Shown one piece after another: positions 23,141 to 33,617 of a stretch of DNA of 64,000 nt (position 1 is its first letter; each line of letters opens with the position of its first letter). A program made the position numbers and the translations under genes. The notes under the pieces are model-generated. The model did no database searches, was not told where the DNA came from, and was given only the letters and a program-made list of their open reading frames with translations. Origin of the DNA: Chitinophaga pinensis (GTDB lineage Bacteria > Bacteroidota > Bacteroidia > UKL13-3); assembly GCA_945860865.1 (NCBI GenBank), contig CAMARW010000001.1:400294-464293 (forward strand). Reading direction: 5' to 3'.

Positions 23141-23989
23141 TTAGTTGGGGTTCCATTTTTGAAAAGATTGGTAGATACTTTCATTTGTTTTTTTATTCTT
23201 TTCAATAGCTAAATCTTTTGAACTTTTTGCATTACCCAAATAATAATGCGGAATATAATAAACCCAAAAAAGTGCCGCTTGCGGCCAGTTGTAAAAATGG
23301 GCGGTAATTAAAAAGGCTCCCATAAGGCTCCCATTTAAAATAAAAGCATTGGCTGCATTGGAATAATTCTTTTGGTAAAGCTGACCCAAACCGGGCAAAA
23401 TGAGGCTCCCTATTTGAGCCTTTTTAATTGAAACAAATTGTGCATTTTGGTAATTAAAAAGAATACTATCTAACTCTTTTTGTTTCGATAAGTTTGCAAA
23501 TTTTTTTAATTGCTGCACGGTGTTTTGAACCGAATCATGTTGGCCTAATTTTAATTCACAAAGCAATTTAAAATAATACAAATTAGCTTCCAACTCGTTT
23601 AAAGAATCGGCTAAGTAATGGTCTACACTATTTAAACAATCTTCCCAGTTCTCTAAGTTAAAATGGGTTGCCACTTCCAATAATTTTTGGTCTGAACCAA
23701 AATTGGGTTCAGACCAGTTTTTAAGCGTATTTATAAGATATAGGCTACGGTTGTATTGTTCGCTTTTAAAGGCTGCATTGATGTAATTATGGGCAATTTT
23801 TTGTTGGGTTTTTGGGTCTGCAAAAAACCAAATTCTGTCGTATAAAAAATAGGCCGCCTCTATATCATTAGCTTGCCAAAGGCTGTCTGCTTTCTGTATA
23901 GCATTAGGAAGGTTTTGGGCCTGCGTAAAATAAAAATTACTCGCAATCAAAACGATAATAACTGGTATATAAATTCTTTTTAATTTCAT
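23141..23989 (-). CDS. Exported protein: helical N-terminal region plus hydrophobic C-terminal PGLGQLY-type (DUF5683/TM2-like) region
   Basis: Signal peptide MKLKRIYIPVIIVLIASNFYFTQAQ; GSLILPGLGQLYQKNYSNAANAFILNGSLMGAF. ORF track start 24115 is too far upstream. Confidence 0.7.
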   Translation of the reverse strand: MKLKRIYIPVIIVLIASNFYFTQAQNLPNAIQKADSLWQANDIEAAYFLYDRIWFFADPKTQQKIAHNYINAAFKSEQYNRSLYLINTLKNWSEPNFGSDQKLLEVATHFNLENWEDCLNSVDHYLADSLNELEANLYYFKLLCELKLGQHDSVQNTVQQLKKFANLSKQKELDSILFNYQNAQFVSIKKAQIGSLILPGLGQLYQKNYSNAANAFILNGSLMGAFLITAHFYNWPQAALFWVYYIPHYYLGNAKSSKDLAIEKNKKTNESIYQSFQKWNPN

Positions 23990-24749
23990 TTTTGATTGAT
24001 TGTAATTCAAAATTTTGCTTTCGCTGTGCGGTTTTATAGGTACCCCAAATATTGCCCCCATAGAAGCACATTCCCATAAATAAATTGGTATATCCAAATA
24101 CTGAGTTAGTGCCATATTTTTGAAAGCTATATACGCTTAAATAGGCGTGCGAGCCAATTAAAAAAAAATTTAACAAGCCTTCATAAGTGTTTCCTAAAAT
24201 CATTTTTCCGCTGCCAGGTAATAGGATAGCCGCTAGCAAATATTTTTTTTGAAAAGGGAATTGTGTTCGAACCATTTTTTGTAAAATTCCTTGGTAATAA
24301 GCGCTGTCCAATATCCATCGGTTTGAACCTAAATATTTTGACAAACTATCTGTATTGCCTTGTAAAATTAAGTACCTTATGGGCAAATCATCTGGCAATA
24401 TTTGCCAATGATTGCGCAAAAGATGCCCCGAATCTGATTCTAAGCATATGCTTGCAATTTGGTTTAAAATTGCCGTATCAAGGCTGTTTTTTTGCAGCAA
24501 TTCTGTTACTTTATTAAATAATTTTTCTTTGTAACCTTGCTGGTATAAACTGTGTAAATATAAGCTACTAAAAGTATCTGGTTTTTCTCTTGCCACAAAT
24601 GGTTCTATGGCTACAACAGCCTGCTCATAATAGCCATTGCACAGCAAATTCTTAGCATATTTATAGGTGTTTGCTTCATTAAATATATCCTGACCAATAA
24701 GCTTAAACGCGTTTAAGAGGAGGAGAGAAAGAATGAGCTTTGCTTTCAT
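23937..24749 (-). CDS. Exported protein, architecturally similar to its downstream neighbour (PGSGKMILGNTYEGLLNF C-terminal region)
   Basis: MKAKLILSLLLLNAFKLIGQ signal peptide; LLPGSGKMILGNTYEGLLNFFLIG. Start 24749 gives an ATGA overlap with the upstream gene. Confidence 0.7.
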   Translation of the reverse strand: MKAKLILSLLLLNAFKLIGQDIFNEANTYKYAKNLLCNGYYEQAVVAIEPFVAREKPDTFSSLYLHSLYQQGYKEKLFNKVTELLQKNSLDTAILNQIASICLESDSGHLLRNHWQILPDDLPIRYLILQGNTDSLSKYLGSNRWILDSAYYQGILQKMVRTQFPFQKKYLLAAILLPGSGKMILGNTYEGLLNFFLIGSHAYLSVYSFQKYGTNSVFGYTNLFMGMCFYGGNIWGTYKTAQRKQNFELQSIKNEIKKNLYTSYYRFDCE

Positions 24750-25090
24750 GGACGGTCTATGGCTTTTCCAGTTTCTGTTGTAAAGTGGTCGTCTGCTCTG
24801 CCATTGCATCTTAACAATCTATCTGCACTTAAAAATAGGCCAATCGGAAAAGGATATTTTTGAATAGCTAATTTCGCATAATGCGAGCAGGAGGGCGTAA
24901 ATTGGCAATTGGCTCCATCTTGAGAAGAAATATATTTTTTATAAAAGCCGTGTATTCCTGTATAATGTGCGGATTCTGTTGTTTTGTTTTTGTTGGAAAT
25001 TAGGGTTTTGTGTAATACTATATCTTGCGCTATTCCATTTTGGATTGTTAACACAAAATTAAAAATTGCAAGCAATATAAATTTGTACAT
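24746..25090 (-). CDS. YidD-like protein carrying an N-terminal signal peptide
   Basis: FYKKYISSQDGANCQFTPSCSHYAKLAIQKYPFPIGLFLSADRLLRCNGRADDHF matches the YidD core; preceded by MYKFILLAIFNFVLTIQNGIAQ. Confidence 0.85.
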   Translation of the reverse strand: MYKFILLAIFNFVLTIQNGIAQDIVLHKTLISNKNKTTESAHYTGIHGFYKKYISSQDGANCQFTPSCSHYAKLAIQKYPFPIGLFLSADRLLRCNGRADDHFTTETGKAIDRP

Positions 25091-25127: not shown

Positions 25128-26786
25128 ATGAAAAAAGTTTTACTTATTTGTTTTAGTATTTTCTTTTTAAACTCACTTTTTGCTCAAGACCAAGCAAAAT
25201 TGGAGCTAGATGCAGAAAATGCTGTAAATAATAAATTTTACACTTACCCTGTTGGAGAAAATGGGGTAATTTTGATGTACCAGCCCGCAGGAAAAGAAAA
25301 AGGAAAAGTGAAAGAGGTAACTTTTACCCTTAAAAAATATGATGTTAACTTCAAAGAATCTGGGAAAGGTTCTTTTATGCCTCCAAAAGGTTTTACATTA
25401 GATCAAGTTGTGAGCGATGCCAATTATTTGTATGCAATGTTTTCGCCAACAATTAATTTTAAAAAATATGTTGTTTTTAAAATTGACAAAGCCACGCTTA
25501 AATCCACACAATTTCAAGGAGAATATCCGAAACATCTTTCTTTTAAAGCTATGGAGGTGATGAATGGTGTAGTTTACTTGGGGTTTGTTTCGGGACCTAG
25601 TGTACAAACCGTTCAGGCAATTGTATGTTTATCAATGCCTTTATGTTTTATTCCCATGTTATTCTATAAACCTAAGTATTATACCATGGTTACTACCATT
25701 GATTTTAGTAAGCGCACGGCTTCTAAAAAAGATTTTCAGTTGGGAGGAGGCAAAGGACTTTCAGTTAATTTTATAGATATGTCTAAAAATGATTCACTTA
25801 ATAAAGTGGATTTATTACTCTCTCTTGTAGGTAAAAAAGAAACTAAAAACATTGTTCGTGAAATTAATGGAACTACTTTAGATAAAGAGAAGGCGTTTAA
25901 ATTAACGTCAGGTAAAGATATTGCTACAGGTAAGGTGTTTAGTACAAGTTCAACAAATAAAATATTAATTGGACAATACAAAAATAAGCCTGGTAAAAGT
26001 AGAAGGGAAAGAAAAGAGGCCGCCAATAAAGCGCCAGGTGGAATTTTTATTAGTGGGGTAGATAATGGCAAACAAACTTTTACCAAATTAGTGCCCTTTA
26101 CCTCTTTTAAAAACTTTACTATAAGTATTCCTAAAGACCCTAGAAAGAAAGGTAAAACAAACAATAAGCGTGAGGCTGCAAGAAGCATGGGTTTACAAAG
26201 TATTATTTCTTTCACCTTTCACGAAATTTTGATTAGAGACAATGAAATCTTAGTTTTTGCCGAGCCTTATTACCCAACCTATCATACAGAAACAAGGGTT
26301 GTTTATGTAAATGGAAGGGCAACCACGCAAACCGTTACTGTTTTTGATGGCTATAAATTTTTGGGTGCCATGGTAATGGCTTTTGATTTAGAAGGCAACA
26401 TGGTTTGGGAAAACGGATTTAAAATTGCCGATGGTCCGCTTTCTTTCTCTACCAGCAGAAAATTTGATTTTTACGAAACAGAGGATGATGGAATAAAAGT
26501 TGTGTATAATAATGCAGGTTCTATTTTCTCAAAAGTAATTTATGATGATAAGGTTGAATCTGAAGTGGAGCTCATGAAGGTGAAAACTGCTACCAATGCC
26601 AAAAAGGTTAAAAACCTAGATTCTAGGTACACGGAGGTAAATGGTACCGAGTATTGGTATGATAATTTCTACCTTGCTTTTGGTATGCAAAAAATCACAT
26701 CTGACACCAAAGCTAAAGACAGGGCAAAGGATGAGAAGAAGAATAAAACTATTTTCTATCTCAATAAAATAGAAATTGAAGAATAA
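25128..26786 (+). CDS. Secreted protein of unknown function
   Basis: Signal peptide MKKVLLICFSIFFLNSLFAQ; no recognised domain. Confidence 0.75.
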   Translation: MKKVLLICFSIFFLNSLFAQDQAKLELDAENAVNNKFYTYPVGENGVILMYQPAGKEKGKVKEVTFTLKKYDVNFKESGKGSFMPPKGFTLDQVVSDANYLYAMFSPTINFKKYVVFKIDKATLKSTQFQGEYPKHLSFKAMEVMNGVVYLGFVSGPSVQTVQAIVCLSMPLCFIPMLFYKPKYYTMVTTIDFSKRTASKKDFQLGGGKGLSVNFIDMSKNDSLNKVDLLLSLVGKKETKNIVREINGTTLDKEKAFKLTSGKDIATGKVFSTSSTNKILIGQYKNKPGKSRRERKEAANKAPGGIFISGVDNGKQTFTKLVPFTSFKNFTISIPKDPRKKGKTNNKREAARSMGLQSIISFTFHEILIRDNEILVFAEPYYPTYHTETRVVYVNGRATTQTVTVFDGYKFLGAMVMAFDLEGNMVWENGFKIADGPLSFSTSRKFDFYETEDDGIKVVYNNAGSIFSKVIYDDKVESEVELMKVKTATNAKKVKNLDSRYTEVNGTEYWYDNFYLAFGMQKITSDTKAKDRAKDEKKNKTIFYLNKIEIEE

Positions 26787-29043
26787 ATTTCTTTGCATTT
26801 TGTGGCTGAGCTTATGCTCAGCTTCTTTGCAAGCTCAAGAGTATAAATCTTGGTTTAAAACCATAGCCCCTTTAGGCGCAGAGTTTACCGATAGAAAATC
26901 TGTTTTAGCTAACATGGAGTTAGATAAACCAGCCAAAAGATCAAAGGTAGATATTAAAGCATTTAAAGAATCGAATGATTATTTTATTGATCGTTTCTTA
27001 AATTCTGGAAAAGTTGTAGCCTATAGTAAGGCTAATATTTATTTGGATAGGGTTGCAGATAAGTTGCTGGCGCATGATCCTGGTTTGCGTGCTAAAGTAA
27101 AATTTTACTTAGTTAATACTTCCGAGGTTAATGCCTTTACTTTCACTAATGGAATGATTTTCGTTAACATTGGCTTGTTTGCGCGTTTAGAAAACGAAGC
27201 TCAACTAGCCTTTATTTTGGCACATGAAATTGCCCATTACACAGAAAAACACGCTTTTGAGCGCTATAAGTTTGCTTCAGAATCTGAAGTAGAGGATATG
27301 GGCGAGGAAGAATTTTTAGAGGTAGTTCTGAGTAAATTTTCGCGCACGCAAGAGTTTGAAGCAGATAAAATAGGTTTCAATATTTTTAAAAAATCTGGTT
27401 ACTCACTACCCGAAGCAACCAAAGTTTTTGATATTCTAAAAATATCGGAATATCCTGTTGAAAATAAAAAAATCGATAAGCAGGTATTCGAAGGTCCCTA
27501 TTTAAAAGTACCAGTAGCTTTTTATCCAGATTCTGCTATTCAAATCGTAATCAATGAGGATGAAAATGATTCTACCCATACACACCCAAGTTCTAGCAAA
27601 AGACAAACAGTACTGAGCAAAGAAATAGATGCCTATACCAGCAGAACAGGTGAGGCTTTTGTGGTAGATAAAAATGATTTTGAAGGTTTAAAACTGGCTT
27701 CCCAATTTGCCTTGAGCGAAGTACTTATTCAAGAGAAAGATTATGTTAGTTCACTTTACAATACAGAACTACTCTTATCTAGGTTTCCTCAACACGAAAC
27801 ATTACTTACTCTCAAAGTAAAGGCCTATTATTTTTTAGTTGCCAATATCAATTCAGGAACAGGCTCTAGTGTGATTAAAAAGCCTAAGAAAATAAATGGC
27901 GAAATTAAAAAGTTTCATCAACTTTTTAAGAAGTTAAGTATTAAAGAAACCAATACTTTGGCTTTGCGTATCTCTTGGGATATATATTTAAGCAACCCTA
28001 AAAACGATGAATTAAAGGCTTTTACTCATGCTATTACCAAGCTGTTTGCCTATAGCGTAGAAACAGATTTGAACCAATTTGCCAAATTGCCCGAGTATAA
28101 TGAAGAATTAATTGCCTCTTTTTACCTTCAAGATACTTCCCAAGAATTTACCAAACGCAAAAGATATAATTCTGGAAAGGGTGCAGTAGTTAGAAAAGTT
28201 AAATCTAAATCAAACGAGAGCTTTGTAAAATACGCAATTCCAGATCTTATTGAAAATAGTCAGTTTAGATCTGTATTTTACGAAATTGCCAAAGAAGTAA
28301 AAGAATATCAGGATGCGCATCCCAATACCATTGCGCAAGAAGATGGGGGCGATGAAGAAAAGGAGAGCTATAATCGTCCGCCCCAAAAAGAAAAAAAGAA
28401 GAAAAAACGTGGCTCTGCCAAAAAAGAGCTTGAAGCCAAAGCACCTTTTAAAACAGATAAGATTTTAATTATAGATGTAAGCAATGTAAAACTTGATTTG
28501 AGCTCGGGTAAACCGGTTAAATTTTTCTCTATCAAACAAAAACAAAAGGAATTGGTAAATACCATACAAACCTGCGCTGCATTAACTGGTATGAATGTAA
28601 CGGTTTTTAATCCTGTAGATTTAATTGCTAACGACTCACAGTTTTATAATGATAGAAATACGTTAGAAACTTGGAAAATGGAGCGTATTACTAATCGCCA
28701 CATGGAAGAGGTTTTGCCTTCTAATTACCAAGAAATAAAAGAATTGTGCGAGCGATACGGAACTAAATATGTATGTTTTATTAGTACTCGTAGTATTATT
28801 TTACCCATTAATCAGGCTCAAATTTTTACAAATCTGTTGTATACTATTTATAATCCACCGCTATTTGTTATTGCCATGTACAGTGCTTTTAGATACAAAA
28901 GATACAGCGCCATTTACATGCCTGTATTTGATATTACAACGGGTAAGGTAATGGTAGATTATTCGAGCGAATACGACTCTCCCGATCATGCAGATTTAAT
29001 GAAAGCTGAGTTTTATTACTTCCTAAATTCAATTAAAAAATGA
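26776..29043 (+). CDS. Secreted M48-family metalloprotease with long C-terminal extension
   Basis: FILAHEIAHYTEKHAF (HExxH), EFEADKIGF; signal-like N-terminus; Lys-rich linker and a C-terminal domain of about 200 aa. Confidence 0.85.
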   Translation: MKNKFLCILWLSLCSASLQAQEYKSWFKTIAPLGAEFTDRKSVLANMELDKPAKRSKVDIKAFKESNDYFIDRFLNSGKVVAYSKANIYLDRVADKLLAHDPGLRAKVKFYLVNTSEVNAFTFTNGMIFVNIGLFARLENEAQLAFILAHEIAHYTEKHAFERYKFASESEVEDMGEEEFLEVVLSKFSRTQEFEADKIGFNIFKKSGYSLPEATKVFDILKISEYPVENKKIDKQVFEGPYLKVPVAFYPDSAIQIVINEDENDSTHTHPSSSKRQTVLSKEIDAYTSRTGEAFVVDKNDFEGLKLASQFALSEVLIQEKDYVSSLYNTELLLSRFPQHETLLTLKVKAYYFLVANINSGTGSSVIKKPKKINGEIKKFHQLFKKLSIKETNTLALRISWDIYLSNPKNDELKAFTHAITKLFAYSVETDLNQFAKLPEYNEELIASFYLQDTSQEFTKRKRYNSGKGAVVRKVKSKSNESFVKYAIPDLIENSQFRSVFYEIAKEVKEYQDAHPNTIAQEDGGDEEKESYNRPPQKEKKKKKRGSAKKELEAKAPFKTDKILIIDVSNVKLDLSSGKPVKFFSIKQKQKELVNTIQTCAALTGMNVTVFNPVDLIANDSQFYNDRNTLETWKMERITNRHMEEVLPSNYQEIKELCERYGTKYVCFISTRSIILPINQAQIFTNLLYTIYNPPLFVIAMYSAFRYKRYSAIYMPVFDITTGKVMVDYSSEYDSPDHADLMKAEFYYFLNSIKK

Positions 29044-31057: not shown

Positions 31058-31750
31058 TTAGCTTCCTATGCTACTCATGCCGCCATCAACCGCTAAAATT
31101 TGTCCGCTTACCCAAGTAGCATTTAACAAATACAAAGCGGCTTCGCTAAGATCTTGCACCGATCCAATCTTTTTGAGGGGATGCCTCTCTGCCGCCGATG
31201 CCATTTTGGTTTCGCTATTCAATAGTTTTTCGGCAAGGGGAGTTTCTGTTAAGGAAGGTGCAATGGCATTTACCCTAATTTTAGGTGCAAACTCAGCAGC
31301 CAATGATTTGGTTAATCCTTCAATAGCTCCTTTAGCCCCGGCAATGCTAGCATGAAAAGGCATTCCTTTTTGCACAGCCACCGTGCTAAACAATACAATA
31401 GATGGGGCAGTGCTTTGCTGCAATTGAGGCAAATATTTTTGAATGGTTTTTACCGCACCTAAATAATTTATTTGCAAATCATTCATAAAATCTGCCTGTT
31501 TAAGGGCTCTAAACGGACGTAAATTGATACTTCCTGGACAATATATTAATCCGTCTATTGGTTCTGTTATCTCCGGAAATTGCACCACTTCCTCTGTTAT
31601 ATCTATGCTACTAAATGTAATGTTTTGTGGCATTTCTGCTTCTTTCCAACTTCTGCTCAATACCTGCACTTTGTTTCCTGCTAAGGCCAATGTTTTAGCT
31701 AAATGTAAACCAATGCCACTGCTTCCACCAACAATTAAATAATTTTTCAT
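31058..31750 (-). CDS. Short-chain dehydrogenase/reductase
   Basis: GGSSGIGLHLA Rossmann motif; ASIAGAKGAIEGLTKSLA. Confidence 0.92.
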   Translation of the reverse strand: MKNYLIVGGSSGIGLHLAKTLALAGNKVQVLSRSWKEAEMPQNITFSSIDITEEVVQFPEITEPIDGLIYCPGSINLRPFRALKQADFMNDLQINYLGAVKTIQKYLPQLQQSTAPSIVLFSTVAVQKGMPFHASIAGAKGAIEGLTKSLAAEFAPKIRVNAIAPSLTETPLAEKLLNSETKMASAAERHPLKKIGSVQDLSEAALYLLNATWVSGQILAVDGGMSSIGS

Positions 31751-31780
31751 ATCTAATAAACATCACCTATGGTAAATTGT

Positions 31781-32932
31781 TTAAAAGCGTTTTCCGTGGG
31801 TAAGGCTAATTATTTTCCTAAGCAACCATGGAAAGGGTTTTAACATGGCAATAATGAGCCATGTTATTTGGGTTGAACCAAAAAGTTTTTGGAAGATTCG
31901 TCCAACAAGTAACCTAGTTGCAAAATTTTTGTTCCAAGCTTGGCGGTAAAGTGTTTCAAATTGATGGCGGGAATTTTCATCTGCCGCATTATCTGGAAAT
32001 AGTTTGCTTATAATATCTGCCGCACGCATAGCCATACTCATACCATTCCCACATAGCGGTGCTATTAATCCGGCAGCATCTCCCAACATAATAATGTGCT
32101 GCTCTATCAATGGTTTTGGTTCAAACCGAATTTGAGAGATAACAAGTGGTTTTTGAAAACGCATGCTTGCTGTTGAAAATATCTGTTTTAGGTGTGGATT
32201 TTTAAACAAAACGGCCTCTTCCATAGCTTTAATCTGATTGCCATGTTTGCTTAAATTTTCTTGGGTTGTGAGGTAGCATAAACAATAATTATTTTGGTCT
32301 ATTTTAGAGATGCCGCAATAGCCATCTTTAAAATTATGTAGGGCAATGTAATTGTCTGGAAAGTCTATGTTTATATGGTATTTTACGCCTATGTAGTTTT
32401 GTTTGCCTTGCTTTATTTCTTGGGTAAATTTTCTATTGAGTTGAAGGTCTAAATTGCTTTTTTTGCCATAAGCACCAAAAGCATAATGGCTTTTAAAATT
32501 TCCTTTATCGCTATTTATTTCAAATTGATTGCCATTAAATGTAACGTGTTTTACCTTGGTGTTTTGTAGTGCTTTAACACCCACTTTAACCGCTTCCTCA
32601 AAGAGCAATTGATCAAGTGTAAAACGCGCTATGCCAAAACCACCTAAATCAAGTGATTGCTTCAGGGTATATCCATTAGGTGCGCTAATTTTTAATTGAG
32701 TAATAAGTGGTAAATTTAAACTAGTTAAGGGAATGCCACAAGATTCAATGAATTGCCAACTTTCTAGCGAGATGTACTCCCCGCAAACTTTGTGAAAGGG
32801 ATACGTTTCTTTTTCAAGTAAAATTACTTTTTTACCTTTTTGTGCCAGTTTAATGGCTAATGTTAATCCACCTAAACCGCCTCCAATAATGGCCGCATCG
32901 TATGTTTCTTCATTATGCATGTTTAAAAACAA
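31781..32932 (-). CDS. FAD-dependent oxidoreductase (geranylgeranyl-reductase/halogenase-like fold)
   Basis: DAAIIGGGLGGLTLAIKLAQKGKKVILLEK, LGDAAGLIAPLCGNGMSMAM. Confidence 0.88.
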   Translation of the reverse strand: MFLNMHNEETYDAAIIGGGLGGLTLAIKLAQKGKKVILLEKETYPFHKVCGEYISLESWQFIESCGIPLTSLNLPLITQLKISAPNGYTLKQSLDLGGFGIARFTLDQLLFEEAVKVGVKALQNTKVKHVTFNGNQFEINSDKGNFKSHYAFGAYGKKSNLDLQLNRKFTQEIKQGKQNYIGVKYHINIDFPDNYIALHNFKDGYCGISKIDQNNYCLCYLTTQENLSKHGNQIKAMEEAVLFKNPHLKQIFSTASMRFQKPLVISQIRFEPKPLIEQHIIMLGDAAGLIAPLCGNGMSMAMRAADIISKLFPDNAADENSRHQFETLYRQAWNKNFATRLLVGRIFQKLFGSTQITWLIIAMLKPFPWLLRKIISLTHGKRF

Positions 32933-33617
32933 TTAACCACCTAAAAGCCCATTTCCAATGTATCTTAATATCTTTAAAAGTATTATGTGGTAATAATTGT
33001 TGGAGTTCGGCCAAAGAAAAACCCCTCCTTACCGAAAGGCAGGCATCATTTTTTACAAGGTAACTAGATGAAAATATTTGGGTAAGCCATTTAATGCTGT
33101 AATAGGCTAGGGGATGTCTGTGGAGATCATTTATTAAAAATCCGATTTTAGATTTTTGTTGCATATAACCAAATAACTCTTGTAGGGCTTTTTCTTTAAA
33201 ATGATGGCAAAAAAGCGCAGTAATAGTAATATCGTATTGTGTATGGTTTTGCAAATACATTTTATAATCCATGCAAACAAAACTTATTTCTGGATAGTTA
33301 GCGCAGTGTTTTTGGGCAAACTCTATGCAATCTGCTTTTAAATCTACCCCTACTAATTGAAGGTTTAATTTATTTTTTCTTCCCCATTCGGCAATGCTTT
33401 TGAGGTTATCTCCGCCACCACAGCCAATGTCTAAAAGGGTATAAGTTTGGTGAGTTAATAAACCAAAAGAGGCCATGCCGTTTAAGGTAACTGCATGGCC
33501 TCCTAAATAGGTATTAATGGTATTTAACTCACGCAAGTTTAGGTATAAATCTTGGGCAGGTATAATGGCCTCATCCAATAACTCTATATCGTAGCAGCGC
33601 TTGCTAAAGTTGGGCAT
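32913..33617 (-). CDS. Class I SAM-dependent methyltransferase
   Basis: TLLDIGCGGGDNLKSIAEWGR motif I. Confidence 0.88.
   Translation of the reverse strand: MPNFSKRCYDIELLDEAIIPAQDLYLNLRELNTINTYLGGHAVTLNGMASFGLLTHQTYTLLDIGCGGGDNLKSIAEWGRKNKLNLQLVGVDLKADCIEFAQKHCANYPEISFVCMDYKMYLQNHTQYDITITALFCHHFKEKALQELFGYMQQKSKIGFLINDLHRHPLAYYSIKWLTQIFSSSYLVKNDACLSVRRGFSLAELQQLLPHNTFKDIKIHWKWAFRWLIVFKHA

Follow-up and report, generated by a model that had tools for sequence, protein, structure and literature searches.

YidD proteins are widespread, and their mode of action is barely understood. The locus described here raises the question of what a YidD domain would do when it is preceded by a predicted signal peptide and encoded in an overlapping operon with two putative membrane proteins. 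The operon lies in a 64,000-nucleotide stretch of Chitinophaga pinensis DNA, which we refer to as the window.

A YidD paralogue with a predicted export signal

The product of gene A scores above the curated cut-offs of both YidD models, with 59.8 bits for PF01809 (cut-off 27) and 62.8 bits for TIGR00278 (cut-off 40). The matched domain (residues 48–97) sits behind a hydrophobic leader and an extension, with Q22 following the leader, and the original prediction of a YidD core behind a signal peptide is thereby borne out at the level of sequence. Q22 is invariant in 11 of 11 aligned A homologues, and the remainder of the leader varies. Cleavage of Bacteroidota signal peptidase I substrates usually leaves such a glutamine (the Q-rule; PMC5837995). 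The leaders of A, B and C follow this rule and all three proteins are predicted to be exported; the same pattern is found in the LolA-type proteins of other Bacteroidota. In the WOR-3-type members of the A family, the N-terminal hydrophobic stretch is short. No solved structure of A was found by sequence search.

The genome containing the window has two genes for YidD proteins, and the one that matches better immediately follows rnpA on a different contig (G000:C2:198227); A is therefore an extra paralogue. That A is remote from rnpA and yidC, as first claimed, holds, since the rnpA-linked yidD is a separate gene; it is also the second, canonical yidD that had been envisaged elsewhere in the genome.

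A shares with canonical YidD (PF01809/TIGR00278) the domain itself, the CxxxxxCS motif, an arginine and a third cysteine. It differs in having a signal peptide, an SSQDG segment ahead of the first cysteine and a location away from rnpA/yidC, and its tail reads DRLxRCNG where that of canonical YidD reads KRIxRCNPWGGxGxDPVP. Canonical YidD is short, lacks a signal peptide and is found at the cytoplasmic face, whereas A carries a leader, an extension and a predicted Q-rule site. The CxxxxxC[ST] motif is matched in all 79 exported YidD homologues (the motif search takes the wrong cysteine pair in L069), and the third cysteine is present in 76 of them. When 79 exported and 19 canonical sequences are placed in one tree (83 columns, canonical rows from this phylum only), a single branch with support of 100/99 splits the two groups. 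Since A scores high enough to be called by the canonical YidD equivalog model, automatic annotation likely hides the exported form.

Operon layout and the paired partners

Features of the operon are collected in Table 1. The outer limits originally given for the operon are right, but the starts of both partner genes are internal to the open reading frames that had been listed mechanically: start codons followed by proper leaders lie downstream of the listed ones for B and C, and the longer B frame beginning at 24809 is not required. The predicted overlaps are present. The TGA of A and the ATG of B overlap as ATGA, and the last 53 bp of B are shared with the beginning of C.

Table 1. Features of the A-B-C operon in the window
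Feature	Position	Strand	Comment
Gene A, exported YidD paralogue (export predicted)	24746–25090	-	114 aa; PF01809 and TIGR00278 matches
Gene B, signal peptide, TPR-like helices, PGxG membrane domain	23937–24749	-	270 aa
Gene C, paralogue of B	23141–23989	-	282 aa
Signal-peptide region of A, residues 1–21	25028–25090	-	Predicted cleavage before Q22; Bacteroidota Q-rule
YidD core of A, residues 48–97	24800–24949	-	Pfam match; SSQDGxxC-x5-CS and DRLLRCNG
PGSG motif of B	24207–24218	-	Read directly
TPR solenoid of C, residues 27–181	23447–23911	-	AF2 helices; TPR matches by profile and fold
C-terminal membrane domain of C, residues 188–282, DUF5683/TM2-related	23144–23428	-	PF18935 match below cut-off; hydropathy
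PGLGQ motif of C	23381–23395	-	Read directly

Both partners have signal-peptide-like leaders and C-terminal motifs as described in the original prediction, PGSGK in B and PGLGQ in C. Profiles begun from B and from C end up collecting the same proteins, which makes the two paralogues, in agreement with the earlier suggestion of a duplication. The proline and second glycine of the PGxG motif are shared by all 60 partners compared.

AF2 models C (pLDDT 93.6) as a TPR solenoid followed by a small helical membrane domain. A Foldseek search with this model listed TPR-type helical-repeat proteins and nothing else, all of them at E 0.001 or above. The partners resemble DUF5683/TM2 proteins in their PGxGQ-type hairpin motif, and 31 of 60 partner-family members match DUF5683 weakly (E<=0.01). 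They differ in that the domain sits behind a TPR solenoid and in that C of the window falls below the family cut-off (PF18935, 20 bits against 26.7); B gave no match to PF18935. Since the hydrophobicity of the PGxG domain is no more than moderate (11-residue means peak at ~1.6), the membrane that it occupies may be either the inner or the outer one.

Conservation of the cassette

In a scan using one genome per species, 260 relatives of A were found, of which the best 80 were kept and 79 loci analysed; the hits were picked by the exported motif, and the counts are thus no measure of how frequent the cassette is. The loci come from about a dozen lineages, including Bacteroidota, Poribacteria, WOR-3-type bacteria, Cloacimonadota, Thermodesulfobacteriota, Latescibacterota, Zixibacteria and Armatimonadota. 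Most are from metagenome-assembled genomes, and single taxon labels may be wrong; the A protein of one 'Rickettsiales' record is nearly identical to that of Marinoscillum.

A partner gene lies downstream of A in 73 of the 79 loci and two partners in 53, and the neighbourhood is thus conserved with the two PGxG genes, as anticipated. The gap between A and B is negative in 43 of the 73, and B and C often overlap by 20–60 bp. Poribacteria mostly have a single partner. The six remaining loci comprise two from Cloacimonadota with A alone (L096 and L112), one further locus with A only (L072), one at a contig end (L086), an A-B fusion (L107) and a TPR-YidD fusion (L080). In L101 and L107, the leader, YidD, TPR and PGxG domains form a single polypeptide; the L080 fusion has a TPR region and YidD but no PGxG domain. 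The linkage and the fusions rule out that B and C are unrelated neighbours. With homologous cassettes in so many lineages, the A-B-C pattern is far beyond chance.

Co-occurrence points the same way. Among the genomes of 60 relatives, counted by eye, 17 encode an exported A and all 17 also encode partners, where only partner matches reaching the C-terminal domain were counted because TPR cross-matches make the whole-genome profile noisy. A single further genome (G005) has partners, located at a contig edge. In Ignavibacteria-like families (family assignment inferred), A-B-C is present and A lacks the third cysteine.

In some genomes, the cassette is present twice, in diverged copies (L087:1788-8039, L100:1-7860, G034:C4 and C6); in L087 and L100, the copies are in opposite orientation within a few kb. 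In the WOR-3-type loci L061, L071, L075, L086, L094, L099 and L106, a probable RNase Y gene, judged by sequence, precedes A at a distance of one to four genes. A C39-peptidase ABC transporter was considered as a conserved partner and rejected, being near the cassette, upstream, in two loci only (L074 and L102).

Within the genus of the window genome, the cassette or part of it is present in 5 of 19 genomes. The DUF4293 gene that follows C in the window is kept in genus members without the cassette, mostly still beside hisS, and no match to A, B or C was found in their DUF4293 regions (up to ~1.5 kb on each side). The A-B-C core is therefore patchy in this genus, and it is dispensable. On the other side of the operon, divergently upstream of A (25128–29043, + strand), are genes for a 552-residue exported protein with no Pfam match and an M48 peptidase, in an order kept in the genus-mates L036–L038. 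Farther away (31058–33617, - strand), genes for an SDR, a FAD-dependent oxidoreductase and a methyltransferase follow one another and may form a small biosynthetic cluster.

LolA-fold and hairpin genes beside the cassette

In 47 of the 79 loci, an additional gene family lies nearly always directly upstream of A, usually overlapping it by ~40 bp. It is found in 41 of 50 Bacteroidota loci and 5 of 6 Poribacteria loci. No match to the PDB was obtained by sequence, and we therefore judged its identity by fold. The AF2 model (pLDDT 93) has a predicted LolA fold, with Foldseek matches to the LolA-superfamily structures 3buu (E 2.3e-11, TM 0.56) and P. gingivalis LolA3 (E 5e-9). By sequence, some members match the lolA, LolA_like and LolB1_Flavo models weakly; with TIGR00547 (LolA), E<=0.01 is reached by only 3 of 25 members (0.00072 at best), and the member that was modelled gives no match. 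The family thus resembles the LolA superfamily (LolA, P. gingivalis LolA3, NE2245) in predicted fold, but few members are recognised by curated LolA models and the gene is linked to exported YidD rather than to lolCDE. In surveyed genomes, it occurs in 10 (E<1e-19), comprising 7 of 60 relatives (E<1e-20) and 3 of 248 genomes of the phylum (E ~1e-20 or lower), each time beside an exported YidD. The exception is a marginal partial match in G054 (E 3e-4).

This strict linkage, together with the predicted fold and the weak lolA-type matches, raises the possibility that the operon serves lipid or lipoprotein traffic rather than protein insertion, with the LolA-type carrier moving acylated cargo and A-B-C docking or unloading it. 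A precedent for LolA-type genes specialised to one locus is the LolA2/LolB2 pair of the F. johnsoniae flexirubin locus (PMC11885536), although that is a different locus and YidD is not mentioned in the text of the paper. We regard lipid traffic as possible but rather unlikely, given that in about 40% of the 79 loci, the window among them, A-B(-C) occurs with no carrier gene and that neither a LolCDE-like transporter nor a lipid-synthesis gene was found among the conserved neighbours of the cassette.

A second accompanying family (F1), of small exported hairpin proteins, is encoded nearby in 37 of the 79 loci. The proteins have a common N-terminal region and variable C-termini, which end in a hairpin or, in some of them, in a TM2 domain. 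A-B-C could be dedicated helpers of these proteins, which would build a pilin-like or pore-like envelope polymer. The shared N-terminal region with variable ends is consistent with this idea, as is the distribution of F1, which occurs in 3 of 60 relatives, every one a cassette carrier, and in 28 of the 40 carrier genomes that were searched for it. Extra F1 matches off the cassette contig occur in a few carriers (G313, G321, G310 and G052). A dedicated helper role is nevertheless unlikely, because no F1 was found in the window genome, in Poribacteria or in WOR-3-type carriers, and matches of F1 to pilin models are below cut-off.

Neither the LolA-type gene (family profile) nor the hairpin gene is present in the window genome or in those genus-mates that carry the cassette, and the core therefore does not require them. 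The window cassette is a reduced version of the operon.

A model for the cassette

A published listing (PMC8082313) has canonical YidD as a putative membrane protein insertion efficiency factor and gives cross-linking as the evidence. From the protein families, predicted folds, linkage, fusions, co-occurrence and export-type leaders described above, we infer a complex, its location and its client. In our tentative model, A would be exported by Sec, placing the YidD domain on the periplasmic side rather than at the inner membrane's cytoplasmic face. B and C would likewise be exported and attached to a membrane via their PGxG (DUF5683/TM2-like) domains, with their TPR arms extending into the periplasm, where they could hold A and bring in partners. 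In most Bacteroidota, the LolA-fold carrier from the same operon may bring or take hydrophobic clients, possibly including the small exported hairpin proteins encoded nearby, and the complex, acting from the periplasmic side, would help these clients to insert or assemble into an envelope membrane.

That A-B-C, with the carrier in most Bacteroidota, forms such an extracytoplasmic complex seems to us somewhat short of an even chance. Insertion or assembly of hydrophobic clients is, with similar reserve, the most economical reading. To our knowledge, the biochemical role of YidD is poorly defined, which counts against it. A more specific version, in which the exported YidD and the paired TPR/PGxG proteins take hairpin proteins from the LolA-type carrier and insert them from outside, possibly into the outer membrane, is doubtful.

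It is very improbable that A is a mere back-up of canonical YidD with its leader serving as a non-cleaved anchor and with housekeeping genes as unrelated neighbours: the short N-terminal hydrophobic stretch of WOR-3-type members would fit, but the invariant Q22 after the leader, the A-B fusions, the presence of a partner gene in nearly all loci, the lack of the canonical PWGGxGxDPVP tail and the separate branch all argue against it. An anti-phage defence system was also considered and rejected, as neither A, B and C nor a representative of either upstream family matched a PADLOC model. The original proposal of an envelope-localised system that repurposes YidD is thus supported as the best reading, with insertion or assembly of clients as its putative function.

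Implications

The searchable literature (subscription journals were outside its scope) yielded no description of an exported YidD or of this operon, and the A-B-C unit appears to be undescribed. A YidD paralogue with apparently inverted topology, fixed partners, fusions to them and a LolA-type carrier offers a handle on how the YidD fold acts. More broadly, the locus points to an undescribed envelope-biogenesis module common to Bacteroidota, Poribacteria, WOR-3-type and other bacteria.
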